This document shows, in pieces, positions 6,182 to 12,185 of a DNA stretch of 44,885 nt. Below the pieces are notes generated by a model, which was not told the origin of the DNA, did not search any database, and saw only the letters and a program-made list of their open reading frames with translations. The stretch lies in contig JAPDJV010000015.1 in assembly GCA_029258925.1 (NCBI GenBank), positions 1 through 44,885 on the forward strand, in the 5' to 3' direction. The translations under genes were made by a program, and so were the position numbers. Source of the DNA: Thermoproteota archaeon. Lineage in GTDB: Archaea; Thermoproteota; Thermoprotei_A; EX4484-217-1; JAPDJV01. How positions within the stretch are numbered: position 1 is the stretch's first letter; the number at the start of each line of letters is the position of its first letter.

Positions 6182-6523
6182 TTATTCCTCTAAACTATCC
6201 TCCTTAACAACATGGACAGCCGTCCCATAAACAGAAATCATTATGAATCCTTCGAGAACCTCGGCTGTCTCAAAGTCCACGCCGATAATAGCATTAGCTC
6301 CCATATCCTTAGCCCTTTTCTGAAGCAACTCTAACGCCTCCATACGAGCCTTCTCCACCTCCTTAAGATAAGATTCACCTCTACCACCAGCTATGGCCTC
6401 GAGTCCTGCTAGAAGTCTTCCACCAGCACCCCTCGTCCTAATACTTGAAGCAGAGACTATTCCAAGCACTCTAACTATTCTATAACCGGGAATGCTCGGT
6501 GTAGTTGTGATTATCATATTCAC
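6182..6523 (-). CDS. YbjQ/UPF0145 family protein
   Basis: A 113-residue member of the YbjQ family (PF01906), a small beta-alpha protein that assembles into pentameric rings in solved structures. Typical features are the N-terminal IITTTPSIPGYRI, the central ASSIRTRGAGGRLLAGL and the C-terminal GANAIIGVDFETAE. The family is often annotated as a putative heavy-metal-binding protein, but a function is not established. GTG 6523 has GGTGGTGA 7 bases upstream, making it the better start than an ATG two codons later. It stands alone, convergent with the methionine synthase gene. Confidence 0.85.
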   Translation of the reverse strand: MNMIITTTPSIPGYRIVRVLGIVSASSIRTRGAGGRLLAGLEAIAGGRGESYLKEVEKARMEALELLQKRAKDMGANAIIGVDFETAEVLEGFIMISVYGTAVHVVKEDSLEE

Positions 6524-6837: not shown

Positions 6838-7006
6838 AGCTCTTAACGTAGACTCTACCCTTTAATTTCTAGTATAGCTATAATAACTAAACTTTACTTT
6901 ACATCAATATACATAACCACTGCTTATGTTAACATTTAACTTAGCAAGATACATTCTTTAACATCTCCTATATGCAACACTAATTCTCGAGGTAAAACTT
7001 AAAAGG

Positions 7007-7038
7007 AGTGTTACCCTCTTATTATATTAAGTAACACT
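7007..7038. promoter_or_regulatory. Inverted repeat around a TATA-like element, importer operon
   Basis: AGTGTTAC at 7007-7014 and GTAACACT at 7031-7038 form an exact 8-base inverted repeat with 16 bases between the arms. The intervening sequence includes a TATA-like TTATTATATTA (7019-7029). A regulator bound here would block initiation of the binding protein gene at 7074. A second AT-rich element (7041-7055) lies nearer the start and could instead be the TATA box. A perfect palindrome ATGTTAACAT is further upstream at 6926-6935. Confidence 0.55.
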
Positions 7039-7073: not shown

Positions 7074-8171
7074 GTGAAGAGGATAGTGTTAATAGCCGTA
7101 ATAGTTCTTATAATAATTGTAGCTACAATATCAGGTTTAATGCTCTACAAGAGAGAATATATGGGCACTTCTGAAGCTCCTAAAGAAATCACTGTAACTG
7201 ATGCTCTTGGGAGAAATGTAACCTTACAGTATCCTGTAGAGACTGTTATTGTAACAGATGATGAGGTTGCCGAGCTTATTCAACTTTTAGGAGTTGCTGA
7301 TAGGGTGGTTGGTATTGAGCCTAGTATTTGTGAAAGAGGATACTTCCCACAAATGGAAGAAAAGCCTATAACGGGAAGTCAGTTTCGAGGTTTAAACTAC
7401 GAGCTAGTAGCCCAATTAAAACCCGACGTGGTAATAATGATGGATGTAGGGCCTGTAACGAAGGTTATAGATAAATTAGACAAGATAGGAGTTAAATCTA
7501 TAGTTATAAGTATTAATCCTGAAAACATACCCTACACTATTGAGCTTCTAGGTAAGATCTTTGGAAAGGAAGAACGTGCAGAAAAGCTACTAGAATGGTG
7601 GAATGGAAAATGGGAATTTCTAAGAGAACGTATGTCAAATGTGGCATCAACAGTTAAGCTTAAGATATTTATAGGTATGGGGTTTACGCAAACAGATAGA
7701 CTACCAACACATACTTGGGGCAAACTGGCTAAATGGAGTTACATACTAAATGTTTCAAAGCTTGAGAACATAGCAGCTGAAAAGCTGGAAACTCATGGAG
7801 AGCTAGACTTAGAATATATTGCTGAGGAAAGTCCAGACATCATAATCATTGGTGACTGGTCAGATAACTGGATAGGGTATACAAAGAACAGTACTGAGCT
7901 AGCGGATAACATGATAGCTATAGTCATGGGGGATCCTGTCCTACAGGATGTAAGCGCTGTTAGAAGCGGAAGAGTGTTCATAGTACACTATATACTACTT
8001 GGAAGCTTTAGATCTGTTATAGGAGCCTACTACCTAGCTAAGGTAGCATATCCAGAGGTCTTCGAAGACATCAACCCTGACCAAATACATAAAGAGTACT
8101 TTGAGACGTGGTTAGGAGTGCCATATAGGGGGATATGGTTCTATCCTCGCCCATGGCTAGGTGAGGGGTGA
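7074..8171 (+). CDS. BtuF/FecB-type substrate-binding protein, membrane-anchored
   Basis: A 365-residue periplasmic binding protein of the iron-siderophore/cobalamin/heme class (PF01497). An uncleaved-looking hydrophobic helix spans residues 3-25 and anchors it outside the membrane. The domain begins ITVTDALGRNVTLQYPVETVI; QLKPDVVIMMD and DLEYIAEESPDIIIIGDW are the family's characteristic strands on the two lobes. It delivers ligand to the FecCD-type permease two genes downstream. GTG 7074 follows a GGGGGA...AGGT leader. Its TGA at 8169-8171 is 6 bases from the ATT proposed as the next gene's start, so translation is probably coupled. The ligand (corrinoid, heme, iron chelate or something new) cannot be read from sequence. 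Confidence 0.88.
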   Translation: MKRIVLIAVIVLIIIVATISGLMLYKREYMGTSEAPKEITVTDALGRNVTLQYPVETVIVTDDEVAELIQLLGVADRVVGIEPSICERGYFPQMEEKPITGSQFRGLNYELVAQLKPDVVIMMDVGPVTKVIDKLDKIGVKSIVISINPENIPYTIELLGKIFGKEERAEKLLEWWNGKWEFLRERMSNVASTVKLKIFIGMGFTQTDRLPTHTWGKLAKWSYILNVSKLENIAAEKLETHGELDLEYIAEESPDIIIIGDWSDNWIGYTKNSTELADNMIAIVMGDPVLQDVSAVRSGRVFIVHYILLGSFRSVIGAYYLAKVAYPEVFEDINPDQIHKEYFETWLGVPYRGIWFYPRPWLGEG

Positions 8172-8172
8172 T
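8164..8172 (+). promoter_or_regulatory. Ribosome site that supports an ATT start
   Basis: GAGGGGTGA/T spans the end of the binding protein gene and lies 5-6 bases before ATT 8178. No ATG, GTG or TTG occurs in the downstream frame between the stop at 8172 and ATG 8289, so this site is what makes ATT the likely initiation codon. Confidence 0.6.
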
Positions 8173-8177
8173 AAGCT

Positions 8178-9218
8178 ATTTTAAATCTCTACACTATCTT
8201 ATCAAAAGCACAGAAAGATGAAATAACAGAGGAGGAAGCATTAACTATTCTACGTAAGGTTAGAAGCTACAGCGAACTGCTCGACCTAATGAAGGTTGCG
8301 GCAAAAGTTAGAAGTGAAGAGGTAGGTGATATCTACAAGTTTGAAGCTTTTATAGGTCCTATAACAAAATGTACAACTAATCCTCCATGTAAATACTGTA
8401 GAAGGTCTAGTAGGGATAGGTCAATATTTGATAGCCCTTTATCACTTAGCGAGATAAAGACCGGTATCGAGCTAGTAGCTAAGACAGGCATAAAGAGGGT
8501 TGAGATCGGTGGTGGAACCTTATGGGAGGGAGCAGGTAGGAAGGTTGTGGAAGCTGTAAGAATAATAAAGAAGATAACTCCTCACATTAAGGTAAGAGTA
8601 AATGTGGGTCCTGCACTAACAATAAACGACCTTCTTAAGCTAAAAGAGCTTAATGTAGAAGAGGTCAGCAGTAACTTCGAAACTATGAATGAACAGGTAT
8701 TTAATAGCGTAAAGCCTGGCGATAGCTTAAATGCTAGAGTAGAGCTTGCAAAAAACATTGATTCCATAGGGTTAAAACTATCAACTACCATGATGGTGGG
8801 TATTGGAAGCACCTATGAGGACTATGTAAAACACATGTTCTGGTTTAAAAAGAACATTAAAAAACTATCTAGATTTGCAATAACAGCTCTTAGACCTATA
8901 CCAGGTACCCCCTTAGAAAGTAAACCTATGGCTTCACCAGTAGAGGTTGCTAAGATAGGTGCTGTTGCAAGGTTGATTTTTAGAGGCGTAGATGTATGTT
9001 TTGGAGGTATAATGAACGATATAAGGCTATTACCTCTTAGAGTCATGGCTGGTGAGAACAGAGAAGTCCATCTTAGTGTCTCAGTACATAGAGCCTGGGA
9101 CTACCCTATACTATCACCTAGTGAAACCACAGTTTTCAACATGGATAAACTAAGGTTTGTAAACAACCTACCTCTGGTAACTAGAATAATTAAAGACCTA
9201 GGTTTAGAACCTGAGTAA
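8178..9218 (+). CDS. HcgA/HmdB-like radical SAM protein, copy 1 (ATT start)
   Basis: Read from ATT 8178 the product is 346 residues. It is a radical SAM enzyme of the BioB/HydE/PylB/HmdB type. The cluster motif is CTTNPPCKYC, that is CX5CX2C with cysteines 65, 71 and 74, instead of the standard CX3CX2C; the same spacing is known from HcgA (HmdB) of the methanogen FeGP cofactor pathway. VEIGGGT is the SAM-binding glycine motif. Reading from the first ATG (8289) would remove 37 residues that align well with the N-terminus of the next gene's product (TILSKAQKD against TILKKTLKD; EALT; LLDLMKVAAKVR against LMDLLKVASKVR). ATT aligns exactly with that neighbour's ATG. It sits inside an importer operon; the reaction is unknown. 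Confidence 0.85.
   Translation: MLNLYTILSKAQKDEITEEEALTILRKVRSYSELLDLMKVAAKVRSEEVGDIYKFEAFIGPITKCTTNPPCKYCRRSSRDRSIFDSPLSLSEIKTGIELVAKTGIKRVEIGGGTLWEGAGRKVVEAVRIIKKITPHIKVRVNVGPALTINDLLKLKELNVEEVSSNFETMNEQVFNSVKPGDSLNARVELAKNIDSIGLKLSTTMMVGIGSTYEDYVKHMFWFKKNIKKLSRFAITALRPIPGTPLESKPMASPVEVAKIGAVARLIFRGVDVCFGGIMNDIRLLPLRVMAGENREVHLSVSVHRAWDYPILSPSETTVFNMDKLRFVNNLPLVTRIIKDLGLEPE
8491..8520 (+). repeat. 30-base exact repeat shared by the two radical SAM genes, copy 1
   Basis: Thirty bases encoding KRVEIGGGT and flanks are identical to 9562-9591 in the next gene, in the same frame. Overall the two genes are much more diverged, so this block reflects strong constraint at the SAM-binding motif or local gene conversion. 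Confidence 0.8.
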
Positions 9219-9245
9219 ACCTGCGTGTAGGGGTGTGTAGATTTC

Positions 9246-10289
9246 ATGACAGATTATACAACAATTTTAAAAAAGACTTTAAAGGATCCTATCGCTAAAG
9301 ATGAAGCTCTCACTTTATTCAAGAAAATTCAAACCCATGGTAAACTAATGGACTTACTTAAGGTAGCTAGTAAGGTTAGAGACGATGAGGTAGGGAGTAA
9401 AGTTAAGCTAATGGGGTTTATAGCAAGTATAACACCTTGTACTGTCGACCCTCCATGTAGATACTGTTTTAGATGGGCTAACGAGAGGTTGTTTAACATA
9501 GACGATGTGCTAAGCGATGATGAGCTAGAGATATCGATGAGAGTTGTAGAAGCAAAAGGGTTAAAGAGGGTTGAGATCGGTGGTGGAACCTACCTAGGTG
9601 AGGAAGGTCGCAAGATGACCATGCATAAGCTTAACATAGCATGTAAAACCTCTCGCAGGGTTGGAGTATGGATTACTAACGTCTCCTTTAACCCTGAAGA
9701 TGTTTACGTGTTAAAAGATATTGGTGTTGAAGGAGTAACTTGCAACCTTGAAACGCTAAATGAAGAGGTTTATAAAAGGTTAAGACCAGGGTTAAACCTA
9801 ACTATTCGTAAGAGGATAATTGAAGAGACTGAGAAAGCGGGACTAGGTATAGATAACACTTTAATGATAGGTCTTGGTGAGTATTGGAACCAGCAACACC
9901 CATATGAGGATTGGGTCGAGTTCCTCTATTACTTTAAGAGGTTTAAGAATTTAAGGATAATGGAGATACATCCGTTTAGACCTGTATGGAACTCTCCATG
10001 TCAAAACATGCCTCCAGGCTCGGAGTTTGAAACTATAAAAGCCATCGCTATAGCTAGGCTCATATATAGAAACATAGACATTAGCGGTGCACAAAGCGTT
10101 CAAGGACTTCTTGCTGGTGCAAACCTTATAATGCATGTTTACCCCATAACTAAAGGCTTTAGACCATGGAGCAGACATCAACTGTTCTACTCGAAGATAG
10201 TTAAGCTCGATGAAGACCTGGTTATGGTTGATAACCTACTTGAGGTTACGAGAAATGCCAGGGAAATGGGCTTTGAAATAGAGATTTAG
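9246..10289 (+). CDS. HcgA/HmdB-like radical SAM protein, copy 2
   Basis: A 347-residue paralogue of the preceding gene product, starting at ATG 9246 after a GGGGTG-containing leader. It has CTVDPPCRYC with cysteines 65, 71 and 74, again CX5CX2C, and VEIGGGT. Near the end of the barrel the copies differ: this one has MEIHPFRPVWNSPC, copy 1 has ITALRPIPGTP. That suggests related but distinct substrates or a division of labour. BioB-like enzymes of this group build or remodel cofactors (biotin, hydrogenase cofactors, pyrrolysine). No other hcg gene and no Hmd hydrogenase gene is in the window, so FeGP cofactor synthesis is not implied. Confidence 0.88.
   Translation: MTDYTTILKKTLKDPIAKDEALTLFKKIQTHGKLMDLLKVASKVRDDEVGSKVKLMGFIASITPCTVDPPCRYCFRWANERLFNIDDVLSDDELEISMRVVEAKGLKRVEIGGGTYLGEEGRKMTMHKLNIACKTSRRVGVWITNVSFNPEDVYVLKDIGVEGVTCNLETLNEEVYKRLRPGLNLTIRKRIIEETEKAGLGIDNTLMIGLGEYWNQQHPYEDWVEFLYYFKRFKNLRIMEIHPFRPVWNSPCQNMPPGSEFETIKAIAIARLIYRNIDISGAQSVQGLLAGANLIMHVYPITKGFRPWSRHQLFYSKIVKLDEDLVMVDNLLEVTRNAREMGFEIEI
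9562..9591 (+). repeat. 30-base exact repeat shared by the two radical SAM genes, copy 2
   Basis: Identical to 8491-8520; covers the SAM-binding glycine motif of the second paralogue. Confidence 0.8.
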
Positions 10290-10338
10290 AGTATATGTGC
10301 TAAGCGCTTGATAATGTTTGATTTTGGAGTATCCAACA

Positions 10339-11427
10339 ATGAATAGGTTGATTAAAGATCCATACAAAGGTTACGAAGGCCTCATAAAGAGGAGAACCTC
10401 TTTTTTAACCTTTCTCACGCTAGTACTTTTAGCGTTAATGATATCATCTATATCTGTAGGTTCAGCATCCATGTCTTTATCTGATGCTATTAAAGCGCTT
10501 CTCTCACCTATACTTCCAGAAATTTCTAGTTCAAACCCTCTAATGGAGAATATAGTTTGGAACTTGAGATTGCCGAGAGTTATAATGGCGGTTCTTACTG
10601 GTGCATGTTTTGGTATAGCTGGATGTATATTACAGGTTATACTGAGAAATCCATTAGCATCACCTTACACTATAGGCGTGGCATCATCAGCGGCTTTTGG
10701 TGCCGCATTGGCTATAATTTTAGGTGCTGGAGTTACAGGATGGTGGGGTCATATAATGGTTTACGAAAATCCATATCTAATAGTTCTCAATGCTTTCTCC
10801 TTCTCAATGATATGTTCTTTAACTATAATGTTGCTATCCTCGTATAAAGGTGCTAGTCCAAGTGCTACTATACTAGCTGGAATAGCTATGACGTACTTGT
10901 TTTCTGCATTAACATCTCTCCTACAATATTTTGGTACTACAGAGCAGATTGCAGCCGTCGTATTTTGGACTTTTGGTGATTTAGGTAAAGCAGAATGGTT
11001 TGATGTTGAACTAGCTACTCTTACACTTCTCACTTTAGCCCCTATAGCTATCGTCTTCTCTAGTAGCTATAATGCTGTTCTTGCTGGTGATGAGGTTGCC
11101 AGAAGTCTTGGTGTGAATGTAAAGGTCCTCAGGATATCATCCTTAGCTATAGCATCGCTTCTTACAGCAACGCCTGTGGCCTTCATTGGCACTATAGGCT
11201 TTATAGGTCTTTTAGCTCCACACATAGCTCGCATGATAATAGGTTCTGACCATCGTTTCTTAATTCCATCAGCATCACTAATAGGTTCCATTCTCCTACT
11301 TGCAGCTGATACTATTGCTAGAATTATACTTTCGCCTCTCATACTTCCTGTTGGAATAGTAACTGCCTTTATGGGCGTACCATTATTCCTGTACTTACTT
11401 CTTAGGAGGAGAGATGAATATTGGTAA
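10339..11427 (+). CDS. FecCD/BtuC-type ABC importer permease
   Basis: A 362-residue multi-span permease of the FecCD family (PF01032), the type II importer fold with about ten membrane helices per subunit acting as a homodimer. Diagnostic stretches are RLPRVIMAVLTGACFGIAG, RNPLASPYTIGV and the late GTIGFIGLLAPHIARM loop that contacts the ATPase. ATG 10339 is preceded by TTGGAG 9 bases away; a TTG at 10318 in frame has no better site. The gene overlaps the ATPase gene by 7 bases. Family members carry cobalamin, heme or iron-siderophores. Confidence 0.9.
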   Translation: MNRLIKDPYKGYEGLIKRRTSFLTFLTLVLLALMISSISVGSASMSLSDAIKALLSPILPEISSSNPLMENIVWNLRLPRVIMAVLTGACFGIAGCILQVILRNPLASPYTIGVASSAAFGAALAIILGAGVTGWWGHIMVYENPYLIVLNAFSFSMICSLTIMLLSSYKGASPSATILAGIAMTYLFSALTSLLQYFGTTEQIAAVVFWTFGDLGKAEWFDVELATLTLLTLAPIAIVFSSSYNAVLAGDEVARSLGVNVKVLRISSLAIASLLTATPVAFIGTIGFIGLLAPHIARMIIGSDHRFLIPSASLIGSILLLAADTIARIILSPLILPVGIVTAFMGVPLFLYLLLRRRDEYW

Positions 11428-12185
11428 CGCTGAAAATACTGGATGTGAGCTTTAGATACAATAGTGTATCAGCGTTAGAAAACGTGACATTTAACGTTGA
11501 TGAAGGTGAGGTTGTAAGTCTTCTAGGTCCTAACGGTTCAGGGAAAACAACGTTGCTTAGATGCATGTGCAGACTGTTAAAACCTCAGTATGGTGCAATA
11601 TTACTTGACGAGGAGGATTTAAGCATCCTTAAGAGAAGTGAGCTTGCTAAACTTATAGGTTATGTACCACAGCTAGAAGAAACTAAATTTCCAATGACAG
11701 TATTCGAAATGATCCTTCTAGGTAGGAAACCCTACATAAGGTTGGGTCCTGGTAGAAATGATATAATAGTTGTTGGAAAGGTTATGAAAGAGCTGGGAAT
11801 AGAAGATCTTGCATTTAGAAAGGTGAGTGAGCTTAGTGGTGGTGAGTGGAGAAAAGCCGTAATAGCACGTGCTCTAGCTCAAGAGCCTAAGATACTACTA
11901 CTTGATGAGCCAACTAACCATTTGGACTTAAAACATCAAGTTGAAGTTTTAAAGTTGATAAGAAGATTAGCATTGGAAAGAAATGTATGTATAGTTATGG
12001 CAATGCATGATATCAACCTTGCAGTAAGGTTTTCAGACAAAGTAGTGATGCTCAATCAAGGTAAGATAGTGTTTTGTGGTAAACCTTTAGCCTTAAAACC
12101 TAGCATCATTGAGAAGGTATATGATGTTAAAGTTGATGTTTTACATGATAGAAAGGGACTACCTATAATAACTGTTGTAGAGTAG
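11421..12185 (+). CDS. FecE/BtuD-type ABC importer ATPase
   Basis: A 254-residue ATPase partner of the FecCD-type permease. Walker A is GPNGSGKTT, the signature is LSGGEW, Walker B is ILLLDEPTNHLD and the switch histidine lies in AMHDINLA. It starts at TTG 11421 with AGGAGGAGAG about 9 bases upstream, inside the end of the permease gene, so the two are translationally coupled. It is the last gene of the operon begun at 7074. Sequence cannot tell whether the cargo is a corrinoid, heme or iron chelate. Confidence 0.9.
   Translation: MVTLKILDVSFRYNSVSALENVTFNVDEGEVVSLLGPNGSGKTTLLRCMCRLLKPQYGAILLDEEDLSILKRSELAKLIGYVPQLEETKFPMTVFEMILLGRKPYIRLGPGRNDIIVVGKVMKELGIEDLAFRKVSELSGGEWRKAVIARALAQEPKILLLDEPTNHLDLKHQVEVLKLIRRLALERNVCIVMAMHDINLAVRFSDKVVMLNQGKIVFCGKPLALKPSIIEKVYDVKVDVLHDRKGLPIITVVE

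Follow-up and report, generated by a model that had tools for sequence, protein, structure and literature searches.

A predicted nickel-responsive operon combining a FecBCD-type importer with HcgA-like radical SAM enzymes in uncultured archaea

The window, as we call the whole stretch of 44,885 nucleotides of Thermoproteota DNA that was analysed, contains an operon which we interpret, with moderate confidence, as an importer of an organic nickel complex serving under nickel starvation; an HcgA-like radical SAM enzyme would synthesise the ligand of this complex or process it. By computation we established the gene content of the operon, the family kinship of its enzymes, the conserved adjacency of enzyme and importer genes, the conservation of an operator in front of them and the presence of nikR and [NiFe]-hydrogenase homologs in the host. 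All loci belong to draft or metagenome-assembled genomes, and the searches covered a sample of this phylum.

Gene content of the operon

The original prediction of a tight five-gene operon on the plus strand (7074-12185) was confirmed, as the open reading frames and the junctions of 6, 27 and 49 bases and a 7-base overlap agree. The following features were assigned:

6998-7004, plus strand: putative TATA-like promoter element CTTAAAA, seen in the sequence
7008-7037, plus strand: perfect inverted repeat GTGTTAC-N16-GTAACAC, predicted NikR operator, by published NikR half-sites (PMC545781)
7074-8171, plus strand: solute-binding protein, FecB/YiuA/CeuE-like (Peripla_BP_2), by Pfam match and fold neighbours
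8178-9218, plus strand: HcgA/HmdB-like radical SAM enzyme type 1 (rSAM1), with an ATT start or starting at 8289
8370, 8388 and 8397, plus strand: CX5CX2C codons of rSAM1, motif CTTNPPCKYC
9246-10289, plus strand: HcgA/HmdB-like radical SAM enzyme type 2 (rSAM2), by Pfam match, family score and structural model
9438, 9456 and 9465, plus strand: CX5CX2C codons of rSAM2, motif CTVDPPCRYC
10318-11427, plus strand: FecCD-type permease with a TTG start; ATG at 10339 is possible
11421-12185, plus strand: importer ABC ATPase (Pfam ABC_tran)

Matches to Peripla_BP_2 (89.3 bits), Radical_SAM (53.5 and 45.1 bits), FecCD (288.4 bits) and ABC_tran (121.6 bits) all lay above the Pfam cut-offs. Thus, binding protein, permease and ATPase of a FecBCD-type importer are encoded together. 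Among the hits listed, none of the three proteins reached the cut-off of an NCBIfam substrate equivalog (B12, F420-0, siderophore, heme). An F420-0 importer was rejected: despite the resemblance of permease and ATPase to that family, neither reached its cut-offs. No exporter or further ligand-synthesis gene was found in the importer/enzyme operons examined.

The 6-base junction in front of rSAM1 requires the ATT start at 8178, the frame being closed by a TAA at 8172 and the first ATG residing at 8289. The segment upstream of 8289 is probably translated, because in the alignment it holds residues (E20, K27 and L37) that are invariant across all nine family members. Between 8172 and 8289 this conserved N-terminal segment offers no ATG, GTG or TTG start, which means that the enzyme uses a rare start codon unless the assembly is in error here. 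The 49-base junction preceding the permease gene applies to the ATG at 10339, while the TTG at 10318 leaves 28 bases. Divergently to the operon and upstream of it, a YbjQ_1 protein ("putative heavy-metal-binding", 116 bits) is encoded at 6182-6523 on the minus strand.

Relationship of the enzymes to HcgA

Both enzymes, which share 37% identity, contain the predicted CX5CX2C motif as listed above, and so do all seven intact relatives aligned. Their best NCBIfam match was HmdB/HcgA (TIGR03957) with 160.4 bits for rSAM1 and 133.5 bits for rSAM2 (relatives, 129-164 bits), none of which attains the equivalog cut-off of 320.9 bits. PylB, BioB and HydE gave at most 77 bits for any of the enzymes; for the window pair, values of 31-75 bits were obtained versus cut-offs of 225-348 bits. 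The HcgA/HmdB-like nature ascribed to both proteins was therefore borne out, this being the best family by a wide margin. HcgA (HmdB), which acts in FeGP cofactor synthesis, shares with them the rare motif, a similar length and a BioB-like fold. However, where HcgA goes with hcg genes, the present enzymes are associated with importers and a NikR-like operator. The absence of Hmd, already noted for the window, extends to the host: a search of its genome for an HMD-domain gene (PF03201) gave no match, while the M. jannaschii positive control was detected. Membership in HcgA was rejected on the grounds of the low scores and a host without Hmd, and by their sequences the enzymes are HcgA-like paralogs, not HcgA. 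With scores that do not exceed about one half of the HmdB cut-off, they may use a different substrate from HcgA.

The rSAM2 model (pLDDT 77) was nearest to HydE, BioB and PylB (TM-score about 0.7-0.8). This fold is common to the window enzymes, but membership in these three families was rejected, since their motif is CX3CX2C instead of CX5CX2C and the family scores fell far below the cut-offs. The window enzymes did not match HutW in NCBIfam, and the plasmid collection disclosed only distant HydE proteins as relatives.

Conservation of enzyme and importer genes

Four other archaeal genomes were found to have orthologous importer operons, and all of these contain a single enzyme, three times of type 2 and once of type 1. 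Only two close relatives were present in the genome collection, both from Thermoproteota MAGs (loci L015 and L016); they comprise the binding protein, one type-2 enzyme, the permease and the ATPase. A type-2 enzyme also accompanies the orthologous importer of G545 (L066), and a type-1 enzyme that of G390 (L024), whose binding protein is 63-67% identical to those of the window, L015 and L016. The importer set behind the type-1 gene of G255 (L025) is not orthologous; it consists of a binding protein (26-30%), a permease and an ATPase. In G327 and G507 the neighbour of the type-1 enzyme is a small membrane protein looking like an ECF S component; this identity is judged by appearance, because no Pfam or NCBIfam model matched. 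The two S-component-like pairs reside at L026 6965-8668 (minus strand) and L067 5896-7564 (plus strand).

Within the phylum sample, 8 of 398 genomes gave an enzyme match. Two of these eight matches deviate: the one in G258 is broken by six stops, and the one at L028 is PylB-like and lies in an apparent pyrrolysine gene cluster. At L028 2296-10112, in a Thermoproteota draft genome, PylB-, PylC-, PylD- and PylS-like genes are located beside corrinoid methyltransferase-like genes.

A tree splits type 1 from type 2 enzymes (support 99/97). Among the genomes seen, only that of the window contains both types, whereas seven of the eight intact operons possess a single enzyme and orthologous importers are accompanied by type 1 in some cases and by type 2 in others. 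Hence the conserved unit is one enzyme plus importer, and a joint function of the two enzymes as a pair was rejected as not borne out. Since importer orthologs accompany either type, ancestral possession of both enzymes with differential loss and replacement are both possible. The adjacency with FecBCD genes held when checked across genomes; it is conserved across orders and classes and not unique to one genome.

The earlier claim that no system of this layout has been described proved too strong, because the heme-uptake operons with anaerobilin synthase (HmuW, ChuW, HutW) also embed a radical SAM enzyme in a metal-acquisition importer operon (PMC10404700). HmuW, however, is a class C (HemN-like) methyltransferase releasing iron from heme, whereas the window enzymes are BioB-like, carry CX5CX2C and stand behind a NikR-like operator; a class C enzyme as in HmuW/ChuW/HutW-type operons was not found in the window operon. 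Literature searches did not find the present arrangement described.

A NikR-like operator at the promoter

The inverted repeat at 7008-7037, which the original prediction had missed, begins 3 bases past CTTAAAA and ends 36 bases before the start codon. Its half-sites are identical to the NikR consensus of delta-proteobacteria, GTGTTAC-[N13/14]-GTAACAC, for which everted arrangements are included (PMC545781); the spacing is N16 versus N13/14. The same half-sites lie upstream of NikR-regulated NikMNQO nickel importers (PMC545781), but NikMNQO is a CbiMNQO-like transporter type without a radical SAM enzyme.

The host genome (1.75 Mb) contains only three such repeats (N14-17) and none with the reversed pattern. 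In the relatives, a variant GTGCAC-N15/16-GTGCAC was encountered once in the whole genome of L015, once in that of L024 and three times in that of L016, with one copy directly upstream of the enzyme/importer operon in each, and was absent from three other whole genomes. At L026 a nikR gene and the S-component/enzyme operon diverge from an intervening GTAACAC-N14-GTGTTAC; L067 has GTGTTAC-N14-GTAATAC with one mismatch, and L025 the direct repeat GTGTTAC-N16-GTGTTAC. Altogether, the NikR-like operator or the GTGCAC variant is present at six of eight related operon promoters; two lack an exact site, and L066 lacks any recognisable one. Spacing (14-16) and half-site orientation differ among the loci. 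Across the nine loci fetched for the enzyme (161 kb), six exact sites were counted, all at operon promoters, while 0.007 were expected from first-order Markov shuffles. The whole-genome counts are the fairer test, because GTGTTAC was compared with the literature after it had been seen and GTGCAC was recognised from the loci themselves.

Judged by eye, 0 to 7 bases lie between the TATA-like element and the start of the site at the enzyme/importer promoters, a position that would be expected of a repressor. Nickel control of the operon, as predicted from these sites, is well supported, while NikR as the protein binding at 7008-7037 and nickel as the metal are what we infer from these motifs.

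NikR of the host and further predicted sites

Targeted searches for nickel genes disclosed one NikR in the host, encoded at L035 4625-5035, with intact nickel ligands (H, HxH, C). It gave 109.6 bits, passing the PRK04460 cut-off of 105 and missing the stricter one of TIGR02793. Almost all of these archaea have a NikR (37 of 43 genomes, with paralogs in several), so its presence proves little and was discarded as uninformative. The DNA-contact strands of NikR only partly match the operator change from GTGTTAC to GTGCAC. Matches to the [NiFe]-hydrogenase family were detected in nine of ten genomes searched, including the host.

The other two host repeats (GTGTTAC-N15-GTAACAC) are situated directly upstream of DUF362 genes (L033 2631-4025, minus strand, contig C5; L034 5156-6472, plus strand, contig C14). 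Unlike in the importer operon, they lie upstream of the TATA-like element, a position that would be compatible with activation. DUF362 belongs to the same Pfam clan as the nickel-pincer racemase LarA (PMC11770544).

G001 has its two remaining sites in front of a HemN/HutW-like radical SAM gene (L041) and a ZnuA-FmdE-ABC operon (L042), and genes of the former kind have similar half-sites in G255 and G258. HemN/HutW-like genes were located at L041 4583-5902, L068 4798-6141 and L027 4728-6074 (all minus strand); in G258 the gene adjoins the degraded CX5CX2C enzyme. As an obligatory partner the HemN-like enzyme was rejected, being missing from most enzyme-bearing genomes. L042 (4939-8047, plus strand) encodes in one operon a ZnuA-like binding protein, an FmdE-domain protein, an ABC ATPase and an ABC-3 permease, with GTGCAC-N16-GTGCAC at its start. 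FmdE recurs at L026, where such a protein comes after the enzyme. A second NikR-like gene of G001 (L072 1746-4112) is divergent to an apparent heavy-metal-type P-type ATPase gene.

Proposed function

According to the nickel-starvation reading, Ni-NikR would bind just downstream of the TATA box and repress transcription as long as nickel suffices, and repression would be lifted when nickel falls. The binding protein would then capture an organic nickel complex outside the cell, FecCD permease and ATPase would bring it in, and the HcgA/HmdB-like enzyme would act on the organic ligand in the cytoplasm. The ligand and the reaction of the enzyme are inferred parts of this scheme. The original prediction of uptake coupled to a small-molecule enzyme stands as the best reading, but its free choice of corrinoid, heme or pyridinol does not, as the operator points to nickel.

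The closest fold neighbours of the binding-protein model were YiuA, FecB-like proteins and H. pylori CeuE (Ni-His). YiuA and CeuE are metal-chelate binders, and we count them as modelled evidence for nickel-complex uptake; the ligand itself is not readable from the model because of its low confidence (pLDDT 66). The Ni-His structure of CeuE shares about 22% identity with the window protein in the structural alignment. CeuE/NiuB belongs to the Helicobacter nickel transporter NiuBDE, likewise an ABC-type uptake system in an organism with NikR, but one that includes no enzyme. A small ligand, which need not be a tetrapyrrole, is favoured by the pairing of the enzyme with an S-component-like protein in two genomes.

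Synthesis of the ligand and its processing are not distinguished by the data. We lean to the former, in which the enzyme would make a small pyridinol-type chelator in one step that is released and re-imported with nickel; the second enzyme of the host would serve for another variant of the ligand, by making or handling it. As HcgA produces a carboxymethyl-pyridinol out of a small metabolite (PMC10100467), one HcgA-like enzyme could suffice for such a chelator, and this fits operons without other biosynthetic genes and the pairing with two importer types. Given the rest of the scheme, we hold ligand synthesis as a tentative possibility, and breakdown of the imported ligand to free the nickel, its near rival, as an only slightly weaker one. 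The full version, a NikR-controlled nickelophore system whose one-step pyridinol-type carrier returns with its nickel through the importer of the same operon, we regard as unlikely.

Alternative explanations

FecBCD/BtuFCD-type importers are known carriers of tetrapyrrole-type molecules. A nickel or iron tetrapyrrole (F430-like, heme, corrinoid) might thus be imported and dismantled or remodelled by the radical SAM enzyme, as heme is by HmuW/ChuW/HutW, the precedent being the radical SAM enzymes of heme-uptake operons (PMC10404700). In addition, the operator-bearing HemN-like enzyme of G001 (L041; similar site in G258) has HutW/ChuW among its top two families. The HemN-like proteins, however, scored 150-177 bits against HutW/ChuW, below the cut-off of 400, and matched HemW about equally well, and the gene is missing from the host (no homolog at E<=1e-20) and the L015, L024 and L026 genomes. 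Moreover, the CX5CX2C enzymes are not class C but resemble HydE, BioB and PylB, which act on small substrates, and two genomes pair the enzyme with the small S-component-like protein. Tetrapyrrole salvage is therefore improbable, although it is the rival that survives best.

The layout could also be as described while the NikR-like repressor senses zinc, cobalt or iron. NikR homologs of some methanogens may sense zinc, and NikR-like proteins adjoining zinc transporters have been suggested as zinc sensors (PMC3087415); the ZnuA-FmdE-ABC operon of G001 has the GTGCAC operator, too. Against this, all four canonical nickel ligands are retained in the sole NikR_C protein of the host, whose score exceeds the cut-off of one NikR equivalog, which leaves another metal with a small chance.

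Slightly weaker still is a nickel-sparing response, in which nickel limitation would induce the HcgA-like enzyme to make the cofactor of a nickel-free enzyme and the importer would supply a precursor or metal. Hmd is upregulated in nickel-limited M. marburgensis (PMC3087415), a NikR site has been predicted before an Fe-only hydrogenase (PMC545781), and HcgA does build a cofactor precursor, but the host is devoid of an HMD-domain gene and no candidate nickel-free client enzyme was found. That ordinary cofactor-biosynthesis proteins lie beside the importer by chance, as the sporadic occurrence of the family in the phylum sample might suggest, is already disfavoured and very improbable, because the adjacency recurs in lineages far apart, with two gene orders and two types of importer, and the genes overlap or nearly abut.

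Implications

Judged from these sequences, the nickel-starvation reading of the operon set suggests that several uncultured heat-loving archaea acquire nickel by a route not yet described. A survey from 2009 distinguished three families of archaeal nickel/cobalt importers and one predicted cobalt type (PMC2667541); if the reading is true, this list would be extended by a chelate-based nickel route, consisting of a FecBCD importer linked to NikR and an HcgA-like enzyme. The predicted archaeal NikR regulon would link DUF362, FmdE and HemN-like proteins. HcgA-type chemistry would be placed outside Hmd, giving a clade of radical SAM enzymes a testable function, and if the enzyme does make the carrier, the operon would represent a nickelophore system of archaea that turns hydrogenase-cofactor chemistry to metal uptake.
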